DNA of 36,300 bases from Arsukibacterium tuosuense (lineage in GTDB: Bacteria > Pseudomonadota > Gammaproteobacteria > Steroidobacterales > GCA-2729495): the NCBI GenBank assembly GCA_945872065.1, contig CAMBYH010000017.1:1-36300 (forward strand), given 5' to 3'. The notes below the pieces were generated by a model, which was given only the letters and a program-made list of their open reading frames with translations, did not search any database and was not told the origin of the DNA. Below, in pieces: positions 11,289-36,300 of the stretch. The position numbers and the translations under genes are program-made. Numbering within the stretch: position 1 is the first letter of the stretch; each line of letters begins with the position of its first letter.

Positions 11289-13019
11289 CTACGGCGATTG
11301 ATTCACGGATGGTGGGTCAGAGAGCCGCAGGGCAGCAGTGTCAGAAGCCGTCGGGTGCCGTTCCTGGTGGACAATGCGCCCGTTTTCCAGCTTGAGGACC
11401 CGGTCCCCCAGCGCAAAGTACCGGTCGTCGTGGGTGACCACAATCACACACTTGCCGCGCGCCTTCAGTTCGGGCAGCAAGCGCATGTAGAAGACCTGCT
11501 TGTAGGTTGGATCCTGGTCAGCGGCCCACTCGTCGAAGATATAGACCGCACGGTCCTCCAGGTACGCGGTCAACAAGGCGAGGCGCCGGCGCTGACCGGA
11601 GGACAGCGCAGTCGTGGACAGGCGATCCTCCTGTACGCGGACCTTGTGGTCCATGCCGAGGATGGTCAGGTAGCGCTGGATCTCGTCCCCCCGGCCCCGC
11701 GCGTCCAGGCCGAAAAGGCGCTCGAAGAGATGAAAGTCGGCAAAGACGGCTGAGAACAGCTGCCGATACTGCTCCCGGCCGGAATCATCGACCACGCGGC
11801 CGTCGCAGCGAATATGGCCGCTCTTTGGCGAGTACAGGCCGGTGAGCAGGCGCACCAGGGTCGACTTTCCGCAGCCATTACCCCCGGTCACAAAAATAAC
11901 CTCGCCGGCTCCGAGCCGAAGGTCGATCGGGCCCAGCAGGAAGCCGGCTTCTTCGCTGGAGGGTGCCGGATACTCGTAGGTGGCGGCCTCGATCTCGATC
12001 AGTGGCGGGACAGATCTCGGCGCCGACCGGACCATCGGCGCCGGCGCGGTATCGAGATCGGTGTCGAGGGTCGCGTCAAGTTCGCGGATCTTGGCCAGCG
12101 ACACGCGTCCCCGCATGAACGTCGGCACGGCGCCGAGCAGCGCCCACATCGGCGACATCATGTACAGGGCGGCGAAGACATAGCCGGTAAGCGCAGTGTT
12201 GGACACCGTTGTGAAGGCAGGCGCGCCGAACAGCAACATGGCGACCAGCACAAAAAACAGGAGTTGGCTCCACACGTCGGCGATCAGGAGCTGGTGGGTC
12301 GCCGCGATGTTCTGGCGGCGCAGCAAATCCGTGGTCTCGTCGATCTCGGTGCGCACAAATTCCTCACGGCGCGCACCGTGCAGCTTGAGCTCCTTGACAC
12401 CCTCAATCAGCGTGCGGAAGTTGCCGAAGAGCAGATCGCGCCCGTTGCGTGCGGCAACGATGGCGATCTGTGCCCGGTGCAGCAGCAGCCGGTAGCCGAG
12501 CACACCGACCGATGCCATACCCGCGCAGAGCAGAAACACTGGCCAGGAGAGCCAGGCGAGATAGATAGAACAGCCGAGCAGTACGGACACGTTTGTGGCA
12601 ATCGACGGCATTATCAGCACGGCGCCGGAGAGCACCGAGACGTCGTCGTTGAGCGTGGCGAGCAGCCGGGGCGAACCCATGGCCTCAAGTCGGTCCAGTG
12701 GCGTGGCTAGTACGCGGTCGCAGAGCCGGCGGCACAGCTTCAGCACAATCTGCTGGGCAAACTGGATGAGCATTACCTGGGCGAAATACTGGGTGGCCGA
12801 CTTGGCAAGCAAAGTGATTACGAAACCCGCCGCGATAAGACCAATGCCGATCCCGCCAGGCACGAGCGCCCGGTGGATGATCGCAACCAGAGCGGCACTC
12901 GCCAGGCCAGTCAGGATGCTGACGGCAACCAGACTCAGCAGCTTGCTGCGGGATGCGGCAAACAGGAAGCGCAGGAGATCCACGTCAGTGCTCGCCGGCC
13001 TGAGAGTTAGCCTTTGCAT
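11289..13019 (-). CDS. Cyclic-peptide-type ABC exporter (SyrD/PvdE family), permease-ATPase fusion
   Basis: An inner-membrane half-transporter of 576 residues with a fused membrane domain and ATPase. The first ~310 residues hold about six hydrophobic segments. The ATPase shows Walker A GGNGCGKST near 380-388, signature LSSGQRRRL near 480, Walker B VYIFDEWAADQDP near 497 and the switch His in VVTHDD. The DEWAADQDP form is characteristic of the SyrD/PvdE group, which exports NRPS products or their precursors. It is the last gene of the cluster, so the likely job is to export the product. The ATG at 13019 overlaps NRPS-B by 35 bases; a GTG at 12983, one base after the NRPS-B stop, is an alternative start. 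Confidence 0.93.
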   Translation of the reverse strand: MQRLTLRPASTDVDLLRFLFAASRSKLLSLVAVSILTGLASAALVAIIHRALVPGGIGIGLIAAGFVITLLAKSATQYFAQVMLIQFAQQIVLKLCRRLCDRVLATPLDRLEAMGSPRLLATLNDDVSVLSGAVLIMPSIATNVSVLLGCSIYLAWLSWPVFLLCAGMASVGVLGYRLLLHRAQIAIVAARNGRDLLFGNFRTLIEGVKELKLHGARREEFVRTEIDETTDLLRRQNIAATHQLLIADVWSQLLFFVLVAMLLFGAPAFTTVSNTALTGYVFAALYMMSPMWALLGAVPTFMRGRVSLAKIRELDATLDTDLDTAPAPMVRSAPRSVPPLIEIEAATYEYPAPSSEEAGFLLGPIDLRLGAGEVIFVTGGNGCGKSTLVRLLTGLYSPKSGHIRCDGRVVDDSGREQYRQLFSAVFADFHLFERLFGLDARGRGDEIQRYLTILGMDHKVRVQEDRLSTTALSSGQRRRLALLTAYLEDRAVYIFDEWAADQDPTYKQVFYMRLLPELKARGKCVIVVTHDDRYFALGDRVLKLENGRIVHQERHPTASDTAALRLSDPPSVNQSP

Positions 13020-16000
13020 CGAGGCCGGCCAGTTCGCCGCGCATCCACGTCGCCAGAAGCTCGACGCCAGGTGTCAGGAGCATCAAGCCCGAGTCAGCGA
13101 CCGGCAGATCGATGGCTGCGTAGTCGCGCGGTGCCAGCGTGCGCCACTGGCGCCGCGTATCCTCGCCAACGAACGAACGCTGGGCAGCGGTGGCGAAGCG
13201 CACGGCACCGTCATACGGACGCAGGTCGTAGTGCAGCAGGGAAAGCTGGTTGGCCACAGACACACGATCCACGTACATCGAGGCCTGATCGCCCCGGTAT
13301 ACGTCGCCTGTGGAGGCCATTTCGCTGATGATCTTCAGCCCCGACAGGAGGGCCTGGACTTGCTGTCGGAGCGATAGCTTGCGCATCGCCGCCAGATGTC
13401 GCTTGACTGCATAGATGAGAAACCGGATTCGATAGGACCTCACGCGGAATGTATCCACGAGCGGCCGGAGCCTGGGTGGTGGCCAGCTCTCCAGCAGGAA
13501 CAGCAGTTCCACCTCTTCGCCAGCTGCTCGCAGTTGCTGCGCCATCTCGTAGGCGACAACGCCGCCAAAACAGCTTCCGCCGATGCGGTAGGGCCCGCTG
13601 GGCTGAAATTTGCGGACCTCACTGAGGTAATGTGCCGCCATCGGCTCGATGCGCTTGAATGGCTGCTCGCGCTCGTCAAGGCCCCGCGCCTGCAGGCCGT
13701 AAAACGGCTGGTCGGGGCCCAGCTGGCGGGCCAGGTCCCCGTAGCAAAGGACATTGCCGCCGATGCCGGGCACCATGAACAAGGGCCGCTGGGTCCCTTC
13801 GCCCTGGATTGTCACGAGCGAGGACCAGGCCGACCGGAAGCCCTCGTGTTCCAGACGCTTCGCGAACTGCTCAATATCGGGCGCGGTGAACAGCGCCGAT
13901 ACCGGCAGCTGTAAGCCAAGTACGCGCTCTATCTGCGCGAACAGCCTCATGGCCAGCAGCGAATGTCCGCCCAGGTCGAAGAAGTTCTCGGTCACGCCGA
14001 TGCCACTGCGGCCCAGCACGCGCTCCCAGATGACGTGCAGCTGAGTCTCCAGGAACGTGCGCGGTTCGATCACCCCGCGCCGGCCCAGTGTCGCAGCGGG
14101 TTTGGGTAACGCCGCGCGGTCGAGCTTGCCGTTGGGGGTCAGCGGCAAGGCCGCCAGTGTGACAAATGCGCCGGGGACCATATACGCGGGCAGCTGCCCG
14201 GCGAGGGCGAGCTTCACAGCCGCCAGGTCGATCGGATCAGCGCTGCGCGGAACCAGATAGCCCACCAGCGCGTTGGTACCCGCAGCGTCGCGGTGAGCCA
14301 GCACCGCGGCATCACGCACCCCAGGGCAGCCCCGCAGCGCGTCCTCGACGGCCTCAAGTTCAATGCGAAAACCCCGCACCTTGACCTGCCGATCGCGCCG
14401 ACCCAGAAATTCAAGCGTGCCGTCGGTGCGCCACCGCACGAGATCGCCAGTGCGGTACATCGTGGCGCCCGTGCCCGCACCAAAAGGGTCGGGCAGGAAT
14501 TTCTCGGCATTCACCGCCGGGTTGGCGAGGTAGCCACGGGCTACGCCGTCGCCGCCGGCGAACAGTTCACCGGCCACACCCGGCGGCACCGGCTCACCCT
14601 GTGGGTCGAGTACATAGACGCGCGTGTTGCTGATCGGCCTGCCGATCAGCACGGTAGCACCCAGCTGCAGACCGGGCGCCATGCGGTGGCAGCAGGTGAA
14701 GGTCGTATTTTCAGTCGGGCCGTAGGCGTTGACGACGATACCGCCCTGCTTTGCATCAAGCAGGCGTTGCACGTGGGAGACCGACAGCACGTCGCCGCCG
14801 GCCAGTACCTGCCGGACACCGGCCAGCGCAGTCAGCTCGCTTTCGACCATCTGATGGAAGAAGCCCGTAGTCAGCCACAAGGTGGAGATGCGCTGGCTGC
14901 GCAATACCAGTGCGAGAGCACCTGTGGTGGGCATGCCGGGCGGGTACACGACGAGCCGGCTGCCATTGAGCAGGGCGCCCCAGATCTCGAGCGTCGAGGC
15001 GTCGAAGGCCAGTGGCGCAAGCTGCAGCAGGGTTTCGTCGGGGCCCAGTTCGGCGTAGTCCGCATTGCACACCAGCCGCGCCACATTGCGGTGAGTGATG
15101 CACACCCCCTTGGGCACGCCGGTGGTGCCGGAGGTAAACATGATGTAGGCCGGCGCGTCGGCAGAGCCCTCGTCGGGCAGTGCGGGTGCGGGGCCGGTGG
15201 CCGCCCACTCCCGCTCCAGGATGATCGTGGCCACTATCGTGTCCCGCAGGCGGTCCGCCAGCAAGTGCTGGGACAGCACCGTACGAATGCCGGCATCGCG
15301 CAGCATTTCGCTGGTACGCGCCGGCGGGTCACCGATATCCAGGGGAACATAGGCCGCACCGGCCTTCACAATGGCGAGCATTGCGACGATGGCGCCAATC
15401 GAGCGCTCGACATACAGGCCGACAGCATCCCCGGGCTGCACACCGTAATCGCGCAGGCGTTGAGCCAGGCGGCTGCTGGCCTGGGACAGTTCTGCATAGC
15501 TCAAACGCGCAACCGGCAGTACCTCGGCCTCCGGTTCGGCACTCTCGACGGCGATCGCCTGGGGCCAGCGGCTTGCGGCCACCTCGAACAGGGACTGCAG
15601 ACTGGCGTTCCGCGGGTACGGCCGCGTCGTGTTGTTCCAGTCGACCAGCACCTGACTGCGCTGCGTCGCTGTCAGCATCCGCAGCTGGCCGATGCTTTGC
15701 TCGGGTGCCGCAACGGCGCTTTCCGCAAGCGCGACGAAGTGGTCGCGCATGCGTTCGGCGGTGGCCGCGTCGAACAGTGAGGTGTTGTACTCGAGGGCGC
15801 CGCGAATACCACCGGGCTCGTCCCACATGAAGAGCGACAGGTCGTACATGGAGGCCACGGTCGTGACAGCAAAGTTTGAGGCCAGAGGCGTGTTCTGCAG
15901 CGTGAAGACAACCTGGAAGACTGGCGACCAGGCCAGGTTTCGCGTCGGCCGCAGCTCGTCGACCATCTTTTCAAACGGCAGGGCGCTGTGGGTCTGGGCA

Positions 16001-17139
16001 TCGAGCACGTTTTCCCGAATTTGCGCAATCAGGTCCCGCAGGCCGAGATCGGGGGTCAGATCGCTGCGGATCGGCAGGGTCCCGACGAACATGCCGATCA
16101 CGCTTTCGAGTTCCCGGGTCGGCCGGTTGGCCACCGGGGTTCCCACCACGATGTCGCTTTGGCCGCTGTAGCGGAACAGCAGCGTCTTGAACACGGCAAG
16201 CAGGGTCATGTACAGCGAGGCGTGCTCGCTGCGCGCCAGGGCGCGCAGGCCCTCGGAGAGGGCGGGCGTCAGCGCGAAGGTCACCACCGCGCCGTCGAAA
16301 CGGCGCAGGCGCGGGCGCGGTCGATCGGTGGGGAGTTCCAGTGTGGGGGACGCGCTGATCAGGCGGCCCCGCCAGTAGCTGAGCAGGTTGTCGAGCGTGG
16401 CTCCGGACAGGGTGGCGCGCTCGCGCGTGGCATGCGCGCCGAAATGTATGGTCAGCGGTGGGAGCACCGGCGCGGTACCGGCCAGGCGTGCCGCATACGC
16501 CACATGCAGGTTTTCCAGGAAAATGCCGAGCGACCAGCCATCGCACACAATGTGGTGCAGGGTGAAGAGCAGCTGGTACCGGCTGTTGCCCAGTCGCAGC
16601 AGCGTGGTCCGGATCAGCGGCCCGTTGGCCAGGCTGAACGGCCGGGCTGCCTCGTCGCGGGTGTGGCGCCGTTCGACCTCATCCCGGTCCGGCGCCGGAA
16701 GGTCCGAAAGGTCGACCAGCACCAGAGGAATGGGCTGGAAGGGGCGCACGACCTGCATGGGCTCGCCATCCACAGCGCGAAACACGGTGCGCAGGGCGCT
16801 CTGGCGCCTCAATACATCGTTGAGGGCCGATTCCATGGCAGCCACATCGACGGTCGAGTCGATGCCATGAGCGGCTCCCAGGTGGTAGGCGCTATTGCCG
16901 GGCTCCAGTTGGTCCAGGAACCACAGGCGGCGCTGTGCGAACGACACCGGATACTCGCCTTCGGCCCCGTCGCTGCGCGCAGCAAGAAGGACAAGCAACT
17001 GCGGTTTGTGCTCGCCAATCAGGGCTTTGCATTCGTCGGACAGGCTTCCCGGCGCTGCGGTGACGCGCAGCCGTTCGCCATCGGCGGTCAGCCGAACGCC
17101 CAATGAATCCAGGTGGGCCAGCAAGCTCTCCGGATTCAA
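12985..17139 (-). CDS. NRPS-B: terminal NRPS module, TubC-type docking-C-A-PCP-TE
   Basis: A terminating module of 1384 residues. Residues 1-55 (ESLLAHLDSLGVRLTADGERL) form a TubC-like beta-hairpin docking domain. The C domain follows with canonical HHIVCDG near 196. The A domain has core FTSGTTGVPKG near 671; I read the specificity code as DALWLGATF plus Lys, close to valine-type codes. The PCP has GGHSLLA near 1058. The TE is unusual: the elbow is GSCFGG with Cys1190 in place of Ser, Glu1217 stands where Asp is usual, and no His is found at the expected C-terminal site (ADSGLML near 1348-1354). The start is TTG at 17139, overlapping the PKS-C stop as TTGA, with GGGAGGAG 8 bases upstream. 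It adds the last residue and releases the chain. Confidence 0.95.
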   Translation of the reverse strand: MNPESLLAHLDSLGVRLTADGERLRVTAAPGSLSDECKALIGEHKPQLLVLLAARSDGAEGEYPVSFAQRRLWFLDQLEPGNSAYHLGAAHGIDSTVDVAAMESALNDVLRRQSALRTVFRAVDGEPMQVVRPFQPIPLVLVDLSDLPAPDRDEVERRHTRDEAARPFSLANGPLIRTTLLRLGNSRYQLLFTLHHIVCDGWSLGIFLENLHVAYAARLAGTAPVLPPLTIHFGAHATRERATLSGATLDNLLSYWRGRLISASPTLELPTDRPRPRLRRFDGAVVTFALTPALSEGLRALARSEHASLYMTLLAVFKTLLFRYSGQSDIVVGTPVANRPTRELESVIGMFVGTLPIRSDLTPDLGLRDLIAQIRENVLDAQTHSALPFEKMVDELRPTRNLAWSPVFQVVFTLQNTPLASNFAVTTVASMYDLSLFMWDEPGGIRGALEYNTSLFDAATAERMRDHFVALAESAVAAPEQSIGQLRMLTATQRSQVLVDWNNTTRPYPRNASLQSLFEVAASRWPQAIAVESAEPEAEVLPVARLSYAELSQASSRLAQRLRDYGVQPGDAVGLYVERSIGAIVAMLAIVKAGAAYVPLDIGDPPARTSEMLRDAGIRTVLSQHLLADRLRDTIVATIILEREWAATGPAPALPDEGSADAPAYIMFTSGTTGVPKGVCITHRNVARLVCNADYAELGPDETLLQLAPLAFDASTLEIWGALLNGSRLVVYPPGMPTTGALALVLRSQRISTLWLTTGFFHQMVESELTALAGVRQVLAGGDVLSVSHVQRLLDAKQGGIVVNAYGPTENTTFTCCHRMAPGLQLGATVLIGRPISNTRVYVLDPQGEPVPPGVAGELFAGGDGVARGYLANPAVNAEKFLPDPFGAGTGATMYRTGDLVRWRTDGTLEFLGRRDRQVKVRGFRIELEAVEDALRGCPGVRDAAVLAHRDAAGTNALVGYLVPRSADPIDLAAVKLALAGQLPAYMVPGAFVTLAALPLTPNGKLDRAALPKPAATLGRRGVIEPRTFLETQLHVIWERVLGRSGIGVTENFFDLGGHSLLAMRLFAQIERVLGLQLPVSALFTAPDIEQFAKRLEHEGFRSAWSSLVTIQGEGTQRPLFMVPGIGGNVLCYGDLARQLGPDQPFYGLQARGLDEREQPFKRIEPMAAHYLSEVRKFQPSGPYRIGGSCFGGVVAYEMAQQLRAAGEEVELLFLLESWPPPRLRPLVDTFRVRSYRIRFLIYAVKRHLAAMRKLSLRQQVQALLSGLKIISEMASTGDVYRGDQASMYVDRVSVANQLSLLHYDLRPYDGAVRFATAAQRSFVGEDTRRQWRTLAPRDYAAIDLPVADSGLMLLTPGVELLATWMRGELAGLDAKANSQAGEH

Positions 17140-20100
17140 AACTCGAGCTCCTCCCGATCGTCCTCGCTTGCCGTGCCGGGTTGCACCGTTTTGCTGCTAG
17201 TCACCCGTTCCGCCAGTCGATGGACCGTCGGCGCGTCGAAGATGTCGCGCAGTGCCAGGCGCACGCCAAGCAACTCGTAGATGCGCGAGAGCACCCGCGT
17301 GGCCATCAGTGAATGGCCGCCGAGTTCGAAGAAGTCGTCGTGAATCCCGATGCCTTCGACGCCCAGCAGCTCGGTCCAGATCATCACCAGGCGCTGCTCG
17401 GCATCGGTGTCCGGCGCCACGAAGCCGCTGGACAGGATTGGTCGCTCGGCAGTTGCGCCAGATGACCCGCGCGCCGGAGGGAGATCGGATGAACTGTTCA
17501 ACGCTGCGGCCTCGACGTCCACCTCGTTGACTGCCGAGGGATCGGGACGCGAGCGGCGGACCGCTTCACCCATCGACACCACGTCATAGGTTTCCACAAC
17601 CACCCGCTGGCGCCCCGAGCGCAGCACGCGTGCGAAGGCTTCAACACCCGTCGCCGAAGGGATCGCGCCAGCCAGGTGACCCCGCCAGTGGCTGCGCATC
17701 GCCTCGGCCACCTGCAATTGTGAGGCCATGCCCACGTCGCGCCAGGCGCCCCACTGGATCGCCACCACCTGGCGCCAGGCGGCTGGCCGGGTGTCACTGT
17801 CGACGAACGCATCGAGCACCGCGTTTGCCGCGGAGTAGTCGCACGCGCCTGGCGAACCAACCGCGGCGTTAATTGAACTCATCAGCGCGACGAAGGCCAG
17901 CGGCTCGGCACCAAGCAACTTCACCAGCACGTCGAGGCCTTGCACCTTGGGAGCGAACACGGTACGTGCGTCCGAAGGACTGGCGAGCAGCGCGATTCGG
18001 CCCTTCCCGGAGATGCCGGCGGCGTGGATCACACCGTGCAGTGCGCCAAAGCGACCCTGTGCCGCCGCGATGGCGCTTGCCATGGCGGTTTCGTCGGCGG
18101 CGTCGGCCTGGGCCACCAGCACCGCACCGCCGGCCGCCTCGATGTTGCGGATTACGGCAATCGTGGTGGCGTGGCGTTGGTCTTCCGGGTGCGTCTGCAG
18201 CCAGGCGTTCCAGTCGTCCCAGGCTTCGCGTGGCGGGAGCGCTGAACGTGCGGTGAGCAGCAGCCTCGCGCCGCACTGCCGGGCCAGCCAGTGGGCGATG
18301 GACAAGCCTATGCCGCCCAGGCCACCGGTGATGAGGTAGCAACCCTGCGCCTGAAGGGGCAGGCCCCGGGTTGTGCCGGCGGGCAGCGTGATGCGTTCGT
18401 GCCGGCGCACCCAGCGTCGGCCAGCGCGCCGTGCGACCTGCGGCTCGATGCCTGCGAGTGCCACTTCTGCAGCGATGGCCGGCACGGACTGGACGGTATC
18501 CACGCCGCCGTCGTGCCACTCGAGATCAATGCTGCGCATCTGCAGGCCCGGTGTCTCGACTGGGAGCACCAGCACCGGCCCGACCGACAGTGCGGCCAGT
18601 GGATCGCGCACCGGCTCGTCGAACACGGACTCTGCACCCGCCGTGAAGTGAAGTATCCGTGTCGGCGCATCCGGGCTTCCGGCCGGAACGGCGCCCGCCA
18701 GTGCGATCAGGGTGGCGTAGGCCTGCTCGCCCGTGCACGGTGTGCTGCCCTCGCTGGCGAGAGCCCACAAGTGCACCGCGCCCCCGAGCGCCGCACCTGC
18801 GGAGCGCAGTTCCTGTGCCAGGGCAGCCAGGTCTTCGGCCCGGTCCGCCCGCACACGCCAGTGCGCGGCGTCGACGCGCTCGAGTGCGCTACCGCGCTCG
18901 ACGAGCACGGGCTCGACCGCCAGGGCGCGCAGCGCTGTGCACACGCCCCGCGTCAGCGGTGTGTCATCTCCAAGCACGAGCCATTGGCCCGCCGCGAGCG
19001 GGTCCGGCGCGCTGTCGTCGCGGCTCCAGGTGGGGGCGAAGAACCAGTCGTCGATCCGGGCAGAGCGGCGTATGGCGTTGGCAGCCCCCGCAGTTCCGGC
19101 CAGGGTGTCGACGGTGGGCTCCACCGCGTAGCGCTTGCGCTCGAAGGGGTAGGTCGGTAGCGGCACGCGGCGACGCGGCGCGCCGTGCAGGTTTTGCCAG
19201 TCGATTTCCGTCCCGGCGAGCCACAGCCGGCCCGCGGACTCGAGCAGGGCAGAGGCGTCGTCCCGGTCGTCGCTGGGGCGGCGCATTGACGCGACCGCGC
19301 GCCGCGTGCCGTCCACGCCGAGGTTCAGCCGCGCCAGTGAGGTGAGCGCGGTGCCCGGGCCGACTTCGAGGAAATGCAGGGCCGGGTCGGCGGCAAGCGT
19401 GGCCATGCCGGCCTCGAACTGAACGGGTCGGCGCAGGTGTTCGGCGTAGTAGGCGGGAGAGGTGGCCTGCTGCGGCGTAATCCACGTCCCGCTCAGGTTC
19501 GAGACGTAGGGGAGCGTTGGTGGCGAGAGCTGCACGCCTTCGAACACCTTGGTGAACGCGGCAAGTACTGGCTCCATCATCGCTGAATGAAAGGCATGGG
19601 AGGTGTGGAGTTTCCGCGCCTCGATGCCGGCGCCAGCGAGCCTGGCGAGCAGCGCAGCCACCGCCGGTTCAGGGCCCGACACTGTGCACAGCCCCGGCGC
19701 ATTCACGGCGGCAATCTCGATTTCCGCGCTGAGCCAGCGGCCGAGTTCGGCCGCACCCAGGTGCACGGCAGCCATGCTGCCGGGCGCCTGCTGCTGCATC
19801 AGCTGCCCCCGCGCTGCGACGACGATCAGCGCGTCGGGAAGCGACAGGACTCCGGCCAGGTGAGCGGCAACGTATTCACCGATGCTGTGGCCGAGCATGG
19901 CCTTCGGTGACACGCCCCAGTGCTGCCAGAGTGTGGCCAGCGCGAATTCGGTGACGAAGAGGGCGGGTTGCGTCAGGCGGGTTTCAGTCAGGGTAGCAGC
20001 GCCATCCGGGGCGTACAGGCACGCACGGATGTCGCTACCCAGCGCGGGCTGCAGAAGTTCGGCGCAGCGGTCGACGGCGGCACGATAGACCGGCTCGTTG

Positions 20101-21743
20101 TCGTAGAGTCCCTGACCCATGCCGGCGTACTGGCTACCCTGGCCGCTGAACAGGAAGGCCACTGGACGTTGCCCGCCTTCGTGTCGTCCGCTCTGATGCG
20201 GACCGCGCAGCGCGGCGATCGCGCCGGCGGTATCCATGGCCACCAGTGCACGACGGTGGGTAAACGCCAGGCGTCCGTGCTGCAGCGTGAAAGCAACGTC
20301 GGCCAGGGCTTGTTCGGGGTGCGCCTGCAGGTGGTCGGCCAGCCGCGCGGTAGCTGCATCCAGCGCCTCGGGGCTCCGCGCCGACAGCAGGATCAGCTGC
20401 GCATTTCGTGGGACGGGTCGTGCAACCGGCGGCGGCGCTTCTTCCAGCACCGCGTGCGCATTGGTGCCGCCAATGCCGAATGAACTGATGGCAGCGCGCC
20501 GTGGGGCATCGCCTTCCGCGGTCCAGGCACTTCCCGTGGCGCTGGCAGTGAAGGGGCTGCGGTCCAGTTCGAGCGCCGGGTTCGGTGTGCGGAAGTTGAC
20601 CAGCGGCGGAAGTTCGCGATGCTGGAGCACGAGCACAGTCTTGATGAGTCCGGCCACGCCGGCTGCGGCGTCGAGGTGGCCGAGGTTGGCCTTGAGCGAG
20701 CCGAGGCGGCAAAAACCCAGATCCGGTGTGTCGGCACGAAACACCTGGGTCAGCGCTGCAATCTCGATCGGGTCACCGAGCGGCGTTGCCGTGCCGTGCG
20801 CCTCAACATAGCCGATGCTGCGCGCTGAAACACCAGCCAGTGCCTGCGCGGTGGCGATCACCTCGACCTGGCCGTCGACGCTGGGGGCAGTGAAGCCGGC
20901 CTTGCCGTCACCGTCGTTATTGATTGCAATGCCGCGAATCACCGCGTGCACGGTATCGCCGTCGGCCAGCGCTTCTGCCAGGCGCTTGAGCACAACGATG
21001 CCAGCGCCCGCGCCGGCCCGCGTGCCGCGGGCCTCGGCATCGAACGGACGGCAGTGGCCGTCCGGCGACAGAATCATGCCTTCCTGATACAGGTAGCCCG
21101 CTCCCAGCGGGAAGGTCAGCGAAACGCCGCCGGCCAGTGCCATGTCGCACTCGCCACGCTGAAGCGCGCGGCAGGCTACCTGCACCGCCACCAGTGAGGT
21201 CGAGCAGGCCGTCTGAATGGACATGCTCGGCCCCCGCAGCCCGAGCTTGTAGGAAACGCGGGTGCAGAGAAAATCCTTGTCGTTGCCGAGCATGACCTGG
21301 TACGCGCCCACTGATTCAGTCAGTGCCGGGTTGCGCAGCAACTGGGCATAGACATACGAATTCATGCTCGCACCGGCATAGACGCCCACCGATTCGGGCA
21401 ACGCCCCCACCGCGTAGCCGGCATGCTCCAGCGCCTCCCAGGCGCACTCGAGGAACACGCGCTGCTGCGGGTCTATGACCTGCACCTCCCGCGGCGAGTA
21501 ACGAAAGAAGCCGGCATCGAAGAACTCGGACTGATCGACGTAGGTGCCGCGGCTCACGTAGTGCGGGTGCGCGCGAAGTGCGGCGGGCACCCCGGCGGCG
21601 TCCAGTTCGGCGTCGCTGAGCGTCGCGAGTGATTCAACCCCTGCGGCGATGTTTTTCCAGAAGTCGTCGAGACTGGCTGCCTGCGGGAAACGCCCGGCCA
21701 GGCCGACAATGGCGATCGCGCCGGGGGGCATGGGCGCACTCAT
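17136..21743 (-). CDS. PKS-C: type I PKS module, KS-AT-KR-ACP
   Basis: One cis-AT module of 1535 residues that extends the peptidyl chain from NRPS-A by a malonyl unit and reduces the ketone. The KS (about 8-430) has QTACSTS with the active Cys near 180, EAHGTATPLGDP and KANLGHLDAAAG. The AT has GHSIGEY near 619 and HAFHS near 719, both malonyl-type. The KR has ITGGLGGIGLS near 1139 and the catalytic Ser/Tyr pair SSINAAVG and YSAAN near 1302; no LDD motif is seen. The ACP has FFELGGHSLMA near 1477. There is no DH or ER, so a beta-hydroxyl should remain. The C-terminus ends DREELEF. The ATG overlaps the NRPS-A stop (ATGA), with GAGG 8 bases upstream. Confidence 0.96.
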   Translation of the reverse strand: MSAPMPPGAIAIVGLAGRFPQAASLDDFWKNIAAGVESLATLSDAELDAAGVPAALRAHPHYVSRGTYVDQSEFFDAGFFRYSPREVQVIDPQQRVFLECAWEALEHAGYAVGALPESVGVYAGASMNSYVYAQLLRNPALTESVGAYQVMLGNDKDFLCTRVSYKLGLRGPSMSIQTACSTSLVAVQVACRALQRGECDMALAGGVSLTFPLGAGYLYQEGMILSPDGHCRPFDAEARGTRAGAGAGIVVLKRLAEALADGDTVHAVIRGIAINNDGDGKAGFTAPSVDGQVEVIATAQALAGVSARSIGYVEAHGTATPLGDPIEIAALTQVFRADTPDLGFCRLGSLKANLGHLDAAAGVAGLIKTVLVLQHRELPPLVNFRTPNPALELDRSPFTASATGSAWTAEGDAPRRAAISSFGIGGTNAHAVLEEAPPPVARPVPRNAQLILLSARSPEALDAATARLADHLQAHPEQALADVAFTLQHGRLAFTHRRALVAMDTAGAIAALRGPHQSGRHEGGQRPVAFLFSGQGSQYAGMGQGLYDNEPVYRAAVDRCAELLQPALGSDIRACLYAPDGAATLTETRLTQPALFVTEFALATLWQHWGVSPKAMLGHSIGEYVAAHLAGVLSLPDALIVVAARGQLMQQQAPGSMAAVHLGAAELGRWLSAEIEIAAVNAPGLCTVSGPEPAVAALLARLAGAGIEARKLHTSHAFHSAMMEPVLAAFTKVFEGVQLSPPTLPYVSNLSGTWITPQQATSPAYYAEHLRRPVQFEAGMATLAADPALHFLEVGPGTALTSLARLNLGVDGTRRAVASMRRPSDDRDDASALLESAGRLWLAGTEIDWQNLHGAPRRRVPLPTYPFERKRYAVEPTVDTLAGTAGAANAIRRSARIDDWFFAPTWSRDDSAPDPLAAGQWLVLGDDTPLTRGVCTALRALAVEPVLVERGSALERVDAAHWRVRADRAEDLAALAQELRSAGAALGGAVHLWALASEGSTPCTGEQAYATLIALAGAVPAGSPDAPTRILHFTAGAESVFDEPVRDPLAALSVGPVLVLPVETPGLQMRSIDLEWHDGGVDTVQSVPAIAAEVALAGIEPQVARRAGRRWVRRHERITLPAGTTRGLPLQAQGCYLITGGLGGIGLSIAHWLARQCGARLLLTARSALPPREAWDDWNAWLQTHPEDQRHATTIAVIRNIEAAGGAVLVAQADAADETAMASAIAAAQGRFGALHGVIHAAGISGKGRIALLASPSDARTVFAPKVQGLDVLVKLLGAEPLAFVALMSSINAAVGSPGACDYSAANAVLDAFVDSDTRPAAWRQVVAIQWGAWRDVGMASQLQVAEAMRSHWRGHLAGAIPSATGVEAFARVLRSGRQRVVVETYDVVSMGEAVRRSRPDPSAVNEVDVEAAALNSSSDLPPARGSSGATAERPILSSGFVAPDTDAEQRLVMIWTELLGVEGIGIHDDFFELGGHSLMATRVLSRIYELLGVRLALRDIFDAPTVHRLAERVTSSKTVQPGTASEDDREELEF
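17148..17155 (-). promoter_or_regulatory. Strong ribosome binding site for the TTG start of NRPS-B
   Basis: On the minus strand GGGAGGAG ends 8 bases before the TTG at 17139-17137. It sets the start at TTG although the codon is rare: the only alternative starts would truncate the docking domain. The same bases encode the Arg-Glu-Glu of the PKS-C C-terminal DREELEF, so the site is read both as protein and as RBS. Confidence 0.8.
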
Positions 21744-24700
21744 GCGCCTTGCCTCGCTGCGCGCGCCCGCGCACGCTGCATGGCCCCGTCGTCGGTGGCG
21801 GTGGACCCGAGTCGCTCGGCCTGCGCCTGCACAGTCGTGTGCTGGAACAGTTCGACCAGCGGCAGTGCGACGCTGAAGTCGCGTTGCAAGCGCACCTGGA
21901 GCTTCACGAGGAGCAGTGAATGGCCGCCGATGTCAAAAAAGTTGTCGTGCAGGCCGACGCGCTCAACGCCCAGCAGTTCGCGCCAGGACGCGGCCACGCG
22001 CTGCTGGGTCGGGCTCATCAGGGCGTCCGGCACATTTGTGGGCGCGGCCTGCGTACGCGGCGCCGGCAGCGCCTTGCGGTCGACCTTGCCGTTCGGCGTC
22101 AGTGGCAGCGCGTCGAGCTCGACAAAGAGGTTCGGGATCATGTACTCCGGCAGTGTCGCGCGCAGCGTTGCACGTGCTGCCTCGGCTTCGAATGGAGTGA
22201 CTTCGGTGGGCACCACGTAAGCGACCAGCCGCTGGTCGCCGGGCGTGTCTTCCCGCACTGCCACCACACAGTGACGCAGTCCCGGGTGGGTGGCGAGCAC
22301 GGTTTCAATCTCCTCGAGTTCGATGCGAAACCCGCGGAGCTTGACCTGCTGGTCGCGCCGGCCGACGAATTCGAGTTGGCCGTCACTGCGCAGGCGCGCC
22401 AGATCGCCGGTCCGGTAGACGCGTTCCGGCGCCCCATCGCCCAATTGCAGGGTGACGAACTTCTCGGCCGTCAGCTCCGGCTGGTTGCGGTAGCCGCGCG
22501 CAACACCAGCGCCGCCAATGCACAACTCACCGGCCACGCCGATGGGTGCGGGCAGACCCGAGGGTTCGAGCACATGGACCGAGGTCTCGGCAATCGGCCG
22601 GCCGATGGCAATCGGGCGGATCGTGTCGCGTACGCGGCTGAGAGTCGACCAGATCGTGGTCTCGGTCGGGCCGTACAGATTCCACAGTTCACCGGGCAGG
22701 CTGACGAGCCGTTCCGCCAGCTCCCGGGGCAGGGCCTCGCCCCCACACAGCATCTTCAGGCCGCCGCTGGCCCGCACGCCGGTCCAGCCGGAGTCGAGCA
22801 GCAGCCGCCAGGTGGCGGGTGTGGCCTGGAGGATGGTTGCCTGCGCGGTCTCGAGCAGGGTAGCCAGGCGCTGGCCGTCCAGCGCCGTGGCCCGGCTGGC
22901 CAGCACGACACTGCCGCCGGCGGTGAGCGGGCCGAAGATCTCCAGACCCGCGATATCAAAGGACAGCGTCGTCACCGACACCAGCCGGTCGTCCGCGCCA
23001 ATGCCGGGTTCCCGGTGCATGGAGCGCAGGAAGTTGACCACTGCCCCATGCTCGATCTGCACGCCCTTGGGCCGGCCCGTGGAGCCGGAGGTGTAGATCA
23101 CATAGGCGAGCGTGTCCGGGCCGACGTCGACCCCGGGCGCGTCGGCTGGCAGTGCAGCGAGCCGTGGGGCCTCGGTATCCAGTGCGACGGGCACCGGTCC
23201 GCCCGGGGTCAGCGTGCCCAGCAGGTGCGACTGGGTCAGCACCACCGCCAGCGCAGCGTCCGTCATCATGAATTCGATGCGATCCCGCGGGAAGGCCGGG
23301 TCCAGCGGCACATAGGCGCCGCCCGCCTTCAGTACGGCCAGCATCGCGACGATCATGTCGATCGAGCGCTCCATCCACACCCCGACCAGTGACTCGCTCC
23401 CTACGTTTAGCGAGATCAGATGATGGGCGAGCCGATTCGCACGGGCGTTGAGTTCGCTGTAGCTGAGTTCGCTGTCGTCCATGCAGACGGCTACCGCACC
23501 GGGCGTGCGCCGCGCCTGGGCTTCGAACAAGGCGTGCACCGTGGTCTCGGGCGTCGGCGGCAGGGACGCGCCGCGGCGCTGCGTAATCAGGGCCTGGGCC
23601 TCTGCCGCGCTGACTATGGGCAGGGATCTCACGCGGGCCTGGGGGTCGGCGGCCAGGCCGCCCAGCAGGTTGGCGTAGTGATCCACCATGCGATCGATGG
23701 TGGCAGCATCGAAAAGATCGGTGTTGTACTCGAAGTAGACCTTTATGCCGTCGGCCATGTCGAAGACATCGACCGAGAGATCGAAGCGCGCAGTCGATAG
23801 CGGCAGCTCGTGCACCGTGCTGGTGACATCGCCGTTTTCCGGGCTGGGCGCTGCGATGCTGTGCAGGACAAACAGCACCTGGAACAGGGGCGAGTGGTCG
23901 AGGTCGCGACGCGGCGCAACCCGCTCGACCAGAAGGTCGAACGGCATCTCCTGGTGGGCGTAGGCTTTTAGCGCCGTTTCCCGCACGCGGGCCAGCAACT
24001 CGCCGCCTGTCGGGTTTCCGGACAGGTTGGCGCGTTGCACGATGTTGTTCGCGAAGAAGCCGACCACGCGCTCGACCTCTGGGCGGTCCCGGGCTCCGAC
24101 CGCTGTGCCGACGGCGAAGTCCTCCTCGCCGCTGTAGCGGTGCAGCAGGATCTCGAAGGCGGCAAGCATCACCATGTAGAGCGTCACGCCCTCGCGGCGC
24201 GCCAGTGTCCTCAGCTCCGCCACCAGGGTATCGGGCAGGAGCTTCAGCCGCCGTGAGCCGTGGTGGGTCTGAACACGGGGGCGGGGGCGGTCGGTGGGCA
24301 GCGCCAGCACCGGTGGCAGGCCGCGCAACTGCTGCATCCAGTACGCCACATGCTCGTCGAGCGCACCGCGGGCAAGTACCTCGCGCTGCCAATGCACGTA
24401 ATCAATGTATTGAACGGGTAGTGGCGGCAGACTGGCCGCCTTCCCACTCAGGTACTGGCGATACAGCGTCTCCAATTCGGAGAACAGGATGGCCAGGGAC
24501 AAACCGTCGGCGACGATGTGATCGACAACGACGCACAACAGATGCTGGTCCGGTGTCAGGCGCACCAGCGTTACCCGCAGCAGCGGGCACCGCGACAGGT
24601 CGAAGGGTTCACGCGCCGTTTCCAGTGCTACGCGCTGCACCTGATCGTCCCGCGAGGCCTCGGCCATGGCACTGACGTCAACCACCTTCAGGTGCACCTG

Positions 24701-25149
24701 CGCTTCGGTCTCGACACCGCAGCGCGGCGCGCCATCGACGGCGAAGAAGCGTGTACGCAGGCTTTCGTGCCGCTGCACCAGGTCGTCGAAGGCCCGCTCG
24801 AGCGCGCTGACATCGAGCACGCCCTCCATCCGGATAGCGCTGACGACGTTGTAGGCGCTGCTGCTCGGATCCATCTGGCGCAGAAACCAGAGGCGCTGCT
24901 GGGTGTGTGATACCGGCATGCTTGCGAGGCGAGGCACGCGCACCAGGGCCGGGACAGCGGCGGGACCCCGGGGTGTGGTGGGAGGGTGCAGGCGCAGGTG
25001 TTCCTTGATCGCTTCCTTGTGTGCGGCGAGTTCGGCGCGCTGTTCGGGGCTGAGCGCACCTTTCGGCGCATTCACGCCCAGGCGGTCGCCGTCGAGGGAC
25101 AGACGCACATCGAGAGAGGCCAGCCGGCCGAGAAGTTCGTCGATCTCGG

Positions 25150-25153
<4 letters not shown>
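21740..25153 (-). CDS. NRPS-A: NRPS module, TubC-type docking-C-A-PCP, predicted glycine
   Basis: One elongation module of 1137 residues. Residues 1-55 (TEIDELLGRLASLDVRLSL) form a TubC-like docking domain. The C domain has DHIVADG near 211, where the first His of the usual HHxxxDG is Asp; the catalytic second His is kept. The A domain has core YTSGSTGRPKG near 689, and I read its code as DILQLGLIW plus Lys, which I recall as a glycine code. The PCP has GGHSLLL near 1076. It condenses glycine onto the polyketide from PKS-B. The start is GTG at 25153, overlapping the PKS-B stop as GTGA with GAGGAA 8 bases upstream. A 33-residue longer reading from 25252 has no domain support and runs through PKS-B. 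Confidence 0.95.
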
Positions 25154-31665
<6,512 letters not shown>

Positions 31666-31867: not shown

Positions 31868-34800
31868 TCATCGCATTTGCTCCAGGCGAGAGAGCAGGCG
31901 CTGCTCGAGTTCGTCTTCGCTCAGCTCGTCGAGTGCACTCTCGTTCGCGAGCGGCGCAGCAGCCGCCGCAGGACTGACGGACGTTGTTATGGCTGCTGTC
32001 CTTGTAGCCTCCTGTAACAGGCCCTGGATGAACGTCGCCAACGCGCCGATGTTGGGGTAATTAAAGGTCAGTGTAGACGGAAGCGGCTGGCCGACACCGT
32101 GCTCAAGTCGACGTTTCAGCTCCACCGCCATGAGGGAGTCCATGCCCAGGTCGAAGAGCCCGGCGGCCAGCGAAATCGGCCCCTGGTCTTCCAGGGCCAG
32201 AACCGCGGCCACCTCGCGCTGGACGAAGTCGATGAGCACGTCGTGGCGCAGGCTGGCTGGCGCGGCGGCTACCCGCTGTACCAGTGCCGAGGTCGCCGCA
32301 TCGTCCTTGCGCCCCGCCGCCGTTGGAGCCGTCACCGGTTTGTTGCCCAGGTGGCGCAGGAAGGGCCGCGGCCGACGCGCCTCGTGCACTGCCTTGAGCT
32401 GGTGCCAGTCGACGCTGGCGATCACGCCCCGCGCCGCGCCGCCGGCCAGCAGTCGCGAGAGCGCGTCGAGGGCAGTGGCGCCCGGCATGGGTTCCAGGCC
32501 AGCCTGGCGGAAATCCTGCTGGCTTTGGGCCGACGCGAGCCGCATGGCGTCCCAGGTGCCCCAGTTGATCGACAGCACAGGCCTGCCCTGCGCGCGCGCG
32601 CGTTCGGCGGTCGCGTCGAGGAAGAGGTTTGCTGCCGCGTAATGGGCCATTCCCGAAGCGCCGAGCAACGCTGTCGTCGACGAGAACAGCACCAGGAAGT
32701 CCATGCCCCCGGACTCCGCCAGCCGTTCGAGCACCAGCGTGCCGTCGACCTTTGGCCGCTGCATGCTCGTCAGCTGCGCAGCGCTCAGTTCGCTGATTGG
32801 CGCCACGCTCAGGTCGGCCGCCAGGTGCACCATGCCCCGCACCGGCGGCGCCTGCGCTGCCACCTGGTTCAGGAGACGTTGCATGACGTCGGCATCGGCC
32901 ACATCGCCCTGCAGGGCGATGACTTGTGAGCCCAGGGCCTGGATGTCGCGCACGGCACCCGAGTCCAGGTCCGGGTGACGACCCAGCAAGGCCACGTGCT
33001 TTGCGCCATTCTCTGCCAGCCAGCGCGCCACCAGCAAGCCGAGTCCGCCGAAGCCGCCGGTGACGAGATAGGTCGCGTCGGTCCTGATGCGCAACGGAAT
33101 GGCGGCCGGTAGTGGCGCCCGGGTCAGGCGGCAGGCCAGTCGTTCGCCGTCGCGCCACGCGGTCTGATCTTCGCCATCGTCGGCCCCCAGTGCGGCCACC
33201 AGCGTGGCGGTCACTATGTCGGCAGAGTCCTGGGGCGGCAGGTCGATCAGGCCACCCCAACGGCCGGGCTGTTCCAGCGCGAAGACCCGGCCCACACCCC
33301 AGAGCGGTGTTTGCCAGCGACCTTCGGCAGCCGCCTGGCCCAGCACGGTATGGGCCCCCTGCGTGACCAGCCAGGCGCGGCCAGCGGCGCTGTCGCGCAC
33401 CAGGGCGCCAAGCCCGCGTAACGGCGCAGCCACGGCTAGTGCGGCGCAGCGCCGGGCGGCATCGGCGTCATTGCCGGCGCCGGCCAGTTCGAGCGCCCCC
33501 AGGTAGACCCACTCATCGGCAGCGGGCAGCGCTGCCTCGCCCGGATCGGCCGGACCTGTCGTCACCGCGTCGCCGCGGGCCTGCAGACACTTCTGTAACG
33601 CAGTGACCAGGGCGGCTGGCCCGCCAACCAGGTTCCAGCGCCTCGGTCGTGTCGGCGCCCGGGCCACCACCAGCGCCTGCTGGGCCTGACCGCGCGTGCC
33701 GGAGGCCTTGTCCGGCACGGCAGCCACGTCCGTGAAGCCGAGTTGCCCGAGCATTTGCGTCCAGGTCTGGTGGCTCACCAGCGGGTAGTCCGGGCGCAGG
33801 CCGGTGTCGGTGAAGCGCCACCAGCCGTCGGTCAGGCCAAAGCTCAGATCTACCCAGCGCTCGGGCGCGACGCCTTCGAGCAGCAGCAGCAAGCCGCCGG
33901 GCGCGAGCAGGGCGCGCGCATGCAACAAGGACTGCCGGAGATCAGCGCTGGCATGCAGGACGTTGGCGGCGATGACGATGTCGTATTCGCCCGCGGCAAA
34001 GCCCTGCGTCGCCGGGTCCTTTTCGATGTTGAGCAGCGCGCGGTGCAGGAACGGCTGTTCACCGAACTGCTCGGCGGCGCGATCCAGGAACAGCGGTGAA
34101 AGGTCAGTAAAGGTGTAGTCGAGGCGCTCCTGGGGCAGCAGTGGCAGCACATAGGTCGTGGTGCCGCCGGTCCCGGCGCCAATCTCGAGCACGCGCAACC
34201 GGCTCGTGACCGGCAACCTGGCAATCGCTGCCGTGAGCGCCGCACCGAGCGCGGCGTTGTAGGTGCGCGCATAGGGCGAATCGACATAGAGTTTGCGGGC
34301 CTCGGCGAACGAACCGCCCGGGAACAGCAGCTGCAGCGGGTCCTGTTCGCCGCGCAGCACGCGGGCCAGCTCGCCGCCACAGCGCCGCAGCGTGCTCAGT
34401 TCGCCGTCGACGTCAGCAAAGCGCTTCAGCAGTCCGTTGTAGCGGGCCATCGGGTCGGTTGGGTCGAGCGTCTGCGCGCACTCGAAGCCGGCGCCCTGCG
34501 CGCGCAGCACGCCATCTTCAGCCAGCATCCGCAACAGGCGGGTAAAGAGGCGCCGGTGTGCGGCGACCACACCGAGGGTGCGGGCCTCGGCTTCGGCCGT
34601 GAACCAGCGGCCGGGGGTGTCGACGAAACCGAGCCGCTTCAGGGCGGTGGCCACGTGTTGTGCGCTCAGCCGGTCGAGTTCGGGCAGCAGCGCGTCGTAG
34701 ACGGCCATGCCATGTTCCTGCGCCAGCGAGTCGAACCGGTCGCACACACCAGGCATGAAGGTCGCCGGTGCCACCAGCAGCGGCGCAGCCCGCAGGGGCA

Positions 34801-36300
34801 GGGGCGCGGGCTCCCACACCACCTGGTAGCTCAATCCGCTGTCGGCCGATGCGCCGACAGCGCGTTGCAGTGACGCCCGCGTCGCACGGCGCAACACCAC
34901 GCCGGAAATCGTGCCGAGGACGGCCCCCTCATCACTGCGCAGCGTGATGTCGGCCCGCCACTCGGCAGGGCTCGCCGCTTCCGCCGGGCGCAACCGGGCG
35001 TGGCACCACAGTGCTGCCGGCAGTGGTGCCGCCAGCTGCAGGTGTTCGATCCCGGTCAGCAGATGGACGTCACTCGACCCGGGCTGTTCGGGCAACACCA
35101 GGCCGACGGCCTGCAGGGCACCGTCGAGCAGAGCCGGGTGCACCCAGGCAACGGCGTCAGCGCGAGCAGCTTCGGGCAGGCCAATGCGCGCCAGAACCTC
35201 GCCGTCGCGCTGGTGGGCGTGCTGCAGACTGCGAAAGACCGGCCCGAGTGCGATCGAATGTGCTGCCAGCCGCGTGTAGTAGGGCCCGCACAGTTGCGAC
35301 TCGCCGAGCGCGTTCGCCAGGTCGCTGATGGGCGTCCCGGCAGACGTGAACGCCGGCGACCCGCCGGTCAGCAGCCGGCCGCTCGCATGGCGCTGCCATT
35401 CCCCACCGGCCTCGATGGCGCGGCTGTGGATCTCGAAGGCCTGGGCCTCGTCGCCGTCAGCGCGGAAGTGGACCTGGACGACGCGGCCTGCAGGCGTCAG
35501 CACCAGCGGCGCATGGACCACGAAACTGACCAGGCTGCGCGATGCCGGACCAAACGCTTCGCCCGCGCAGGCTTGCGCCATCTCGATGAACACTGGCCCG
35601 GCAGCGAGCGGCACACCGTGGACGCAGTGCTCCGCCAGGTAGGCAGGCTGCTGCGGTGTGAGCCTGACCTCGAACGTCGGTAGCGCCGTGGGCAGCCGTG
35701 CGCCAAGCAGCGGATGTGCACTTTTGGGCGCAGGCAATGCGCGCTGCGCCTCGGGCGGGGTGGTGGCAATCCAGAACGAACGGCGCTCGAACGGGTAGGT
35801 GGGCAGCGACACGCGGGGCACTGGCCGGGGCCTGCCGACACCAGCCCAGTCCACCGACGCGCCCTGGACATACAGCGCCGCCAGGCAGTGTGTCAGCGTG
35901 TGCCAGGCTTCATGCCCGCGGCGCAGGGAGACGGCGAAGTGCGTACCCACCTCGGGCAGGGAACGCTGCGCCAGAGCAGTGAGTGTTGGGTGCGGGCCAA
36001 CTTCCAGGAAGTGGCGGTAGCCCTCCCGGTGCAGCCAGGCCAAGCCGTCGGCAAAGCGCACCGGCTCGCGCAGATGGCGGCGCCAGTAAGTGGCGTCGGG
36101 CGTGCCTGCGGGCAGCGGGCCGCCGGTCAGGTTCCAGGCCACCGGAATCTGCGGCGCCTGCATGGCGACGCAGCCCGCGCAGGCCTGCATGGCGTCGAGC
36201 GCGGGTTCCACCAGTGGCGAATGCGCCGCCAGCGACACGAACAGTCGTTGACCCTGCACGTTGCGCGCCGAAAATTCGGCGAGCAGGGCGTCGAGCGCCG
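31868..36300 (-). CDS. PKS-A (partial, N-terminus beyond window): AT(C-term)-DH-cMT-KR-ACP
   Basis: The reading frame is open to the right edge; at least 1476 residues are visible and the KS plus most of the AT are missing. The AT tail has VSLAAHSPLVEP at about 36210-36240, where malonyl-type ATs have HAFHS and methylmalonyl-type YASHS. The DH has EHCVHG near 35620 and HPALLDGALQ; the usual Pro of the first motif is Ala. A C-methyltransferase follows with SAM motif LEIGAGTGG near 34175. The KR has VTGGFGGLG near 33050 and HYAAAN near 32640. The ACP has LGMDSLMAVE near 32137. The C-terminus LDELSEDELEQRLLSRLEQMR-type helix resembles a PKS docking segment. Predicted output: an alpha-methyl, alpha,beta-unsaturated thioester passed to PKS-B. 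Confidence 0.95.
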   Translation of the reverse strand, partial: ALDALLAEFSARNVQGQRLFVSLAAHSPLVEPALDAMQACAGCVAMQAPQIPVAWNLTGGPLPAGTPDATYWRRHLREPVRFADGLAWLHREGYRHFLEVGPHPTLTALAQRSLPEVGTHFAVSLRRGHEAWHTLTHCLAALYVQGASVDWAGVGRPRPVPRVSLPTYPFERRSFWIATTPPEAQRALPAPKSAHPLLGARLPTALPTFEVRLTPQQPAYLAEHCVHGVPLAAGPVFIEMAQACAGEAFGPASRSLVSFVVHAPLVLTPAGRVVQVHFRADGDEAQAFEIHSRAIEAGGEWQRHASGRLLTGGSPAFTSAGTPISDLANALGESQLCGPYYTRLAAHSIALGPVFRSLQHAHQRDGEVLARIGLPEAARADAVAWVHPALLDGALQAVGLVLPEQPGSSDVHLLTGIEHLQLAAPLPAALWCHARLRPAEAASPAEWRADITLRSDEGAVLGTISGVVLRRATRASLQRAVGASADSGLSYQVVWEPAPLPLRAAPLLVAPATFMPGVCDRFDSLAQEHGMAVYDALLPELDRLSAQHVATALKRLGFVDTPGRWFTAEAEARTLGVVAAHRRLFTRLLRMLAEDGVLRAQGAGFECAQTLDPTDPMARYNGLLKRFADVDGELSTLRRCGGELARVLRGEQDPLQLLFPGGSFAEARKLYVDSPYARTYNAALGAALTAAIARLPVTSRLRVLEIGAGTGGTTTYVLPLLPQERLDYTFTDLSPLFLDRAAEQFGEQPFLHRALLNIEKDPATQGFAAGEYDIVIAANVLHASADLRQSLLHARALLAPGGLLLLLEGVAPERWVDLSFGLTDGWWRFTDTGLRPDYPLVSHQTWTQMLGQLGFTDVAAVPDKASGTRGQAQQALVVARAPTRPRRWNLVGGPAALVTALQKCLQARGDAVTTGPADPGEAALPAADEWVYLGALELAGAGNDADAARRCAALAVAAPLRGLGALVRDSAAGRAWLVTQGAHTVLGQAAAEGRWQTPLWGVGRVFALEQPGRWGGLIDLPPQDSADIVTATLVAALGADDGEDQTAWRDGERLACRLTRAPLPAAIPLRIRTDATYLVTGGFGGLGLLVARWLAENGAKHVALLGRHPDLDSGAVRDIQALGSQVIALQGDVADADVMQRLLNQVAAQAPPVRGMVHLAADLSVAPISELSAAQLTSMQRPKVDGTLVLERLAESGGMDFLVLFSSTTALLGASGMAHYAAANLFLDATAERARAQGRPVLSINWGTWDAMRLASAQSQQDFRQAGLEPMPGATALDALSRLLAGGAARGVIASVDWHQLKAVHEARRPRPFLRHLGNKPVTAPTAAGRKDDAATSALVQRVAAAPASLRHDVLIDFVQREVAAVLALEDQGPISLAAGLFDLGMDSLMAVELKRRLEHGVGQPLPSTLTFNYPNIGALATFIQGLLQEATRTAAITTSVSPAAAAAPLANESALDELSEDELEQRLLSRLEQMR

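Follow-up and report, generated by a model that had tools for sequence, protein, structure and literature searches.

How could an enzymatic assembly line release its product if its terminal thioesterase (TE) lacks the catalytic histidine? The question is raised by a 36.3 kb stretch of DNA (hereafter the window) from Arsukibacterium tuosuense, which is the entire contig CAMBYH010000017.1 of a draft genome (GCA_945872065.1; 2.71 Mb, 130 contigs). Its minus strand encodes a hybrid polyketide synthase (PKS)/nonribosomal peptide synthetase (NRPS) line, and the last NRPS gene ends in the TE considered here. An initial annotation had described a Cys nucleophile in the elbow GSCFGG, a Glu exactly 27 residues later in LLESWPPP, and ADSGLML in place of GxHxxML, with no His nearby. 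Translation of the gene at 12985-17139(-) confirms all three readings. Within aa 1100-1384, His is present at 1170, 1248, 1303 and 1384 only. Cys1190 fills the role of nucleophile and Glu1217 that of the position I acid of a triad type I TE, and the catalytic His that such an enzyme requires after the last strand was not found in the window TE.

The window TE belongs to a natural and conserved branch of PF00975 that has no catalytic His, and Cys is the sole invariant residue among the classical catalytic ones. To place it, 163 TE sequences (rows) picked for their similarity to it were aligned, and all counts below therefore describe a selected set and not a random survey. The main His-less group, which includes the window TE, comprises 56 rows, 55 of them distinct (loci L044 and L139 carry the same TE). 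Cys is the nucleophile in 56 of 56 rows, whereas the acid site reads E in 35, D in 20 and A in 1. The stretch that forms the His loop contains no His at all in 52 of the 56 rows and a His at a variable place in the other 4; among relatives of the window TE its motif is DSG, NSG, DTG, SSG, NAG, AAG or HAG. A side branch with Asn at the acid site (6/6 rows) also has Cys throughout (6/6), as does a second His-less group of the PVYPxG type (5/5). Alignment with other TEs, the check suggested by the initial annotation, sets the window group apart: all 82 Ser-type rows retain the His, as do 13 of the 14 remaining Cys-type rows (the exception is L023). Loss of His in this set is seen only on Cys-type TEs.

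No His column is fixed across the 56 rows of the main group, so the lost residue has no constant replacement. The best candidate column, 1170, holds His in 48 of the 56 rows but in only 5 of the 13 from outside Nitrospira; the 1220 column holds it in 43 of the 56 and in 1 of those 13. Among 21 spread representatives of the group, C1190, G1188, G1192, P1124 and G1125 are invariant. The 1124 column, Pro in these representatives, reads His in 72 of the 96 rows that lie outside the three sets described above. The motif around the carrier Ser was found in 55 of the 56 rows (the pattern gave no reading for L156, and its match in L141 is atypical).

These counts support the earlier proposal of a specialized subgroup as opposed to a random mutation, as the window TE is one of 56 aligned Cys rows without the catalytic His. 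The accompanying claim that all three canonical residues had been lost together holds in part. Only the His is truly lost; neither Cys nor Glu is peculiar to the branch, as both replacements turn up in TEs that have the His (Cys in 14 and Glu in 2 of the 96 rows outside the three sets). Because the acid column of the main group alternates mostly between E and D, the Glu is a minor feature of the window TE, and the missing His is the key one. Altered chemistry is still likely.

The overall fold of the domain is predicted to be intact. The match to PF00975 scores 93 bits (cut-off 26.4) and, at aa 1118-1223, is confined to the first half of the profile. An AlphaFold2 model of the TE region has a predicted local distance difference test score (pLDDT) of 89.5 and a predicted template modeling score (pTM) of 0.87, with the active-site blocks at high confidence. 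Among the 50 matches listed against solved structures, Z ranges from 21.4 to 27.5 and the root-mean-square deviation (rmsd) from 2.0 to 5.3, and most are TEs of NRPS, PKS and fatty acid synthase systems. The best are tied: AB3403 (4zxh; Z 27.5, rmsd 4.5, 248 residues aligned), 7crn (Z 27.1, rmsd 2.4, 211 aligned) and NocTE (6ojd; Z 26.8, rmsd 2.7, 213 aligned). EntF, Vlm2 and SrfTE are also among the solved TE domains that match the model over its length. The model thus points to an intact alpha/beta-hydrolase TE fold.

Both His-less groups are well supported in trees. FastTree (130 rows) gives support of 0.96 to the main group and 0.996 to the second, and SH-aLRT values computed with treekit (67 rows) are 99 for each. 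If the triad columns are excluded, the tree explains the main group with two changes where one sufficed before, and support for the second group drops to 92. On the same reduced alignment, the AU test does not reject one common origin for every His-less row (p-AU 0.58), and the tree constrained to it scores 4.4 log units better. His was thus probably lost once or a few times, in the 163-row set always on Cys.

The branch is most common in one Nitrospira genus. Searches at family, order and phylum level and of genome contigs recovered the Cys elbow, an E or D site and DSG, NSG or DTG in proteobacteria, one Rokubacterium and Nitrospira. In a related genome (L003), a C-A-PCP-TE gene carries a homologue 45-47% identical to the window TE. 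Of 369 genomes sampled from the class around the window, the window genome alone passes 1e-55, although at most six candidates were scored per genome and misses are possible. In the phylum of Nitrospira, 28 of 198 sampled genomes pass the same threshold, and a His-less TE is present in 28 of 29 genomes of one genus (that of the genome containing L042), all 28 reading C, E and DSG. A search of plasmids gave 209 records, all below 60% identity.

Selective constraint was estimated from the ratio of nonsynonymous to synonymous substitution rates (dN/dS). In the main Nitrospira genus (28 sequences), the TE has a median of 0.052 and the preceding stretch of up to 330 aa one of 0.072, rough values given a median dS of 1.4 and 1.3, respectively. 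C, E and DSG are invariant, and the TE of this genus, where the domain is commonest, is thus maintained under strong purifying selection and well conserved. Elsewhere the TE looks more relaxed, relative to its own upstream stretch most so in the Asn-site branch (0.255 versus 0.110; 4 of 7 sequences readable), in which the DSG turn, the acid and the neighboring exporter described below are all gone.

Published enzymes provide a frame for interpreting these features. ObiF1, SulM, BulbE and NcmC are Cys-TEs that all retain His (PMC6668435, PMC11298585, PMC11536411, PMC10956176). Like the window TE, ObiF1 and SulM are terminal NRPS TEs with a Cys nucleophile, but they keep the His, carry the acid at position II after the next strand and make four-membered rings. 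Their position II Asp and His are 30 residues apart (2926/2956 in SulM, 1254/1284 in ObiF1; PMC11298585, PMC6668435), and at that spacing the window TE has Gln1320 and Ser1350 and so lacks the pair. The indolylamide-forming BulbE-TE shares the Cys and an acid after b6 with the window TE and differs in keeping His1097; it makes a 15-atom macrolactam. AB3403 is the best solved match by sequence as well as, in the tie noted above, by fold. Its TE, termed uncharacterized, resembles the window TE in its Cys nucleophile and position I acid (PMC11298585), but its usual loop contains a His (DLPGDHSSIMY). Other enzymes are similar by description. The shuttles CmaE, SyrC, CysB and LgnA move carrier-bound aminoacyl groups without hydrolysis, and PacP TE0, which like the window TE is fused to an NRPS and has no usual triad, accompanies a spontaneous transthiolation (PMC8748450, PMC7966384). 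Unlike the window TE, the shuttles are free-standing, LgnA has Ser-Asp-His, and PacP TE0 is believed to be inactive (PMC8748450). No published His-less Cys TE was found in a literature search that covered few subscription papers.

The reading we tentatively favor, at a probability of about 0.42, is that the TEs of this branch act as Cys-only thioester relays to a good nucleophile that is not water. The peptide would pass from the phosphopantetheine of the carrier to Cys1190 by transthioesterification, a step that should be near energy-neutral and need little help from a base. Without a His-acid pair, water would hardly be activated, and the Cys-bound chain could wait for a good nucleophile. 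The acceptor would most likely be an amine or another thiol, such that the product leaves as an amide or by transfer and not as a free acid. The adjoining exporter, to judge by gene order, might then take the finished product out. A relay is favored because Cys thioesters, as argued for BulbE-TE, are much more activated than oxoesters for aminolysis and not for hydrolysis (PMC11536411), and loss of His should disfavor water further. For SulM, a base may be unnecessary with its sulfamate nucleophile, whose pKa is about 8 (PMC11298585). The aminoacyl shuttles and PacP TE0 introduced above serve as further precedents. Also consistent with a relay are the retention of Cys in every row of the three sets despite a variable acid and the lack of any constant His, the restriction of His loss to Cys rows (all 82 Ser rows have it), the purifying selection on the TE, the presence of the carrier Ser motif and the predicted fold.

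Four observations weigh against this reading. Removal of His or Asp significantly diminishes the activity of ObiF1 (PMC6668435), and therefore a Cys-TE does not simply tolerate loss of His. The exporter neighbor is missing in most members from outside Nitrospira. No amine donor common to the scanned clusters was noticed, although no systematic search was made. Finally, among the remaining members with a linked exporter, from Nitrospira and its phylum (13 of 15 sequences), dN/dS is higher for the TE than for the preceding stretch (0.212 versus 0.151, with 32 of the 78 TE pairs saturated).

The main rival to the relay, although rather doubtful, is that the TE still hydrolyzes or cyclizes its substrate with a base supplied from an unexpected place: H1170, the His three residues past the acid in Nitrospira (ESWHP), the Asp or Ser of DSG, or Glu1217 itself. 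The high His counts at columns 1170 and 1220 and the invariance of DSG in the main Nitrospira genus speak for such a base. Both columns lose most of their His outside Nitrospira, however, and the window TE reads Pro at 1220; the D and S of DSG vary among relatives, the acid varies to A or N, and the residue 30 positions before Ser1350 is not an acid. A dead or dying TE, with product leaving spontaneously or through another enzyme, is considerably less probable. The relaxed Asn-site branch would fit this explanation, as would the weaker constraint on the TE in the 13 exporter-linked members and the precedent of PacP TE0, but the strong constraint on the TE of the main Nitrospira genus would not. 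Moreover, a dead domain should lose its Cys, and the Cys, the G-x-C-x-G elbow and the PG loop are kept in 21 of 21 spread representatives. That the domain is an ordinary TE misread or damaged by assembly error has next to no probability: the source genome is indeed a fragmented draft, but the same features recur in the 45-47% identical relative from another genome and in dozens of Nitrospira sequences. Random mutation and assembly error were rejected because the features recur in many genomes.

The initial annotation had also drawn an analogy to Cys-type TEs that close strained rings. A cyclase that, like ObiF, SulM or NcmC, closes a strained ring or works by Dieckmann condensation would explain a Cys in the nucleophile elbow, which all three use. 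All three keep the His, however, which makes the analogy weak, as does the position II acid of ObiF and SulM, and the residue to be released fits poorly. The adenylation (A) domain codes of the last module presumably specify Gly in all six Nitrospira loci read (L042, L045, L047, L049, L055, L166). For seven proteobacterial loci we take the codes to mean Gly in two (L173, L174), Val- or Ile-like residues in four (Val-like in the window, Val in L168, Ile-like in L170 and L175) and Thr in one (L171); the Rokubacterium code (L046) is presumably Val-like. Gly, Val and Ile offer no side-chain nucleophile for a four-membered ring; Thr, which has one, is the residue that would suit the analogy. With Gly or a Val/Ile-like residue last in 12 of 13 coded loci of the His-less group, strained-ring closure is unlikely for members ending in Gly or a plain aliphatic residue. 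In the window, the terminal module follows an upstream module presumably specific for Gly and a ketide unit. The ketoreductase motifs of the PKS module before the last module are intact, so no beta-keto group is expected there, and Dieckmann closure was rejected for this locus. As a general account of the branch, a cyclase of this kind is highly improbable.

We counted an exporter as linked if a homologue starts no more than 1.2 kb past the TE match on the same strand. By this measure, an exporter directly follows the TE in 48 of 58 distinct places of the main group (49 of 59 before removal of a duplicate), in 0 of 6 of the Asn-site branch, in 0 of 5 of the second group (two with less than 1 kb left to read) and in 1 of 94 other places (L118; three of the negatives have less than 1 kb left). 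Except for the window, L021 and L022, the positive places are all in Nitrospira or its phylum, and the linkage thus represents few independent events. No exporter follows the TE in L002, L003, L019, L020 or L046, and none was found beside the free-standing PCP-TE genes of L004-L006, L011 and L015 (too little sequence is left in L004). One Nitrospira gene, UBC2 (L166), was read whole: besides the TE it contains three AMP-binding, three carrier and two condensation domains, and a DIP2-like stretch lies close to its start; the domain order, partly deduced, is FAAL-carrier-C-A-PCP-C-A-PCP-TE. Downstream lie a TIGR01194 exporter and a phosphopantetheinyl transferase. A more elaborate form of the relay would have a non-hydrolyzing, Cys-only TE hold a lipopeptide as a long-lived Cys thioester and hand it to an amine acceptor in the manner of a ubiquitin E2, with the hand-over tied to the exporter; in Nitrospira, the exported product would be a nearly universal N-acyl dipeptide with Gly at its end. 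This proposal is unlikely as a whole.

Release by a TE with Cys but without His bears on how such domains choose between water and other nucleophiles. With about 60 natural His-less domains and their His-bearing Cys relatives at hand, this choice becomes testable by single-residue changes. The findings also suggest that almost every sampled genome of one Nitrospira genus encodes a lipopeptide-type product. Nitrite oxidizers and comammox bacteria of treatment plants belong to Nitrospira. NRPS clusters have been described in Nitrospira and their biosynthetic potential called mostly unexplored (PMC9765116), and no paper on the product predicted here was found in the literature search, which covered few subscription papers.

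The features of the window are collected in the table. Five module genes are recognized by Pfam and TIGRFAM profiles, and the last is followed by the TIGR01194 exporter, in which Walker A, signature and Walker B motifs are present. A pattern search for HHxxxDG gave no match in the condensation domain of the upstream NRPS module. The TTG start of the terminal NRPS gene is credible because a GGAGG precedes it and it overlaps with the stop codon (TGA) of the upstream PKS gene. The related NRPS genes in L168 and L170 also start with TTG and overlap the end of the preceding gene by 4 bases.

Table. Coordinates of the assembly-line features in the window.
Feature	Positions	Strand	Basis and remarks
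PKS module AT(partial)-DH-MT-KR-ACP	31868..36259	-	Profiles; reading frame runs open into contig end
PKS module KS-AT-DH-ER-KR-ACP	25150..31665	-	Profiles
NRPS module TubC_N-C-A-PCP	21740..25252	-	Pfam; A-domain code DILQLGLIWK, which we take to mean Gly
PKS module KS-AT-KR-ACP	17136..21743	-	Profiles; KR apparently intact in its nucleotide and Ser/Tyr motifs
Terminal NRPS gene, 1384 aa, TubC_N-C-A-PCP-TE	12985..17139	-	Open reading frame, Pfam, TTG start
TubC_N docking domain	16984..17130	-	Pfam
Condensation domain, HHIVCDG intact	15652..16962	-	Pfam and motif
Adenylation domain	14125..15588	-	Pfam and ten-letter code DALWLGATFK, presumably Val-like
PCP domain, phosphopantetheine Ser motif DLGGHSL	13852..14043	-	Pfam and motif
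Thioesterase domain region (aa 1100-1384)	12988..13842	-	PF00975 match, AlphaFold2 model
Cys1190, nucleophile elbow GSCFGG (1188-1193)	13570..13572	-	Translation from TTG
Glu1217, usual acid site, in LLESWPPP (1215-1222)	13489..13491	-	Translation; 27 residues after Cys1190
ADSGLML (1348-1354) at GxHxxML position, without His	13078..13098	-	Translation
Cyclic peptide export ABC transporter	11289..13019	-	TIGR01194, 468 bits (cut-off 286); overlaps end of NRPS gene

Several neighborhoods of related genes have features of their own. An Opitutaceae locus (L118:8001-10986) pairs a downstream exporter of the same family with a Cys TE that keeps its His and reads Asn at the acid site. The related NRPS of genome G008 (L168:9282-14069) adjoins XrtA/PEP-CTERM exopolysaccharide genes, and a nearby protein reads as having a PEP-CTERM-like tail. 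A general link between these TEs and exopolysaccharide export was rejected, as such genes occur in L168 only among the neighborhoods scanned. About 1 kb after the NRPS of genome G156, a 629-aa protein (L170:8265-10154) is read as asparagine-synthase-like; it has a weak match, far below cut-off, to the macrolactam cyclase model NF033561.

Variation within the His-less sets is also evident. Members of the second group (L057, L058, L062, L068, L099) read GGYCLGG or GGYCMGG at the elbow and PxxPxG in the His loop, retain the loop His at the 1124 column, and come from Acidobacteria, Aminicenantes and one Nitrospirae genome. In the Asn-site branch (L055, L094, L135, L194-L196), which is Nitrospira-type, RTA or RTT replaces DSG, and L135 reads GMM. 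The window genome encodes a second His-less Cys TE on a 2509-aa open reading frame of another contig (C9:59003-59887; L002, L175, L176). It reads GACFGA and GRDSGDML, has no acid at the usual acid site, and has beside it reading frames that match LLM-type oxidoreductases and an MFS transporter. The main group also includes free-standing carrier-TE proteins (L177:8627-9763, L178:11080-12243, L179:4996-6102), and in L177 and L179 their genes adjoin acyl-CoA-ligase-like genes.

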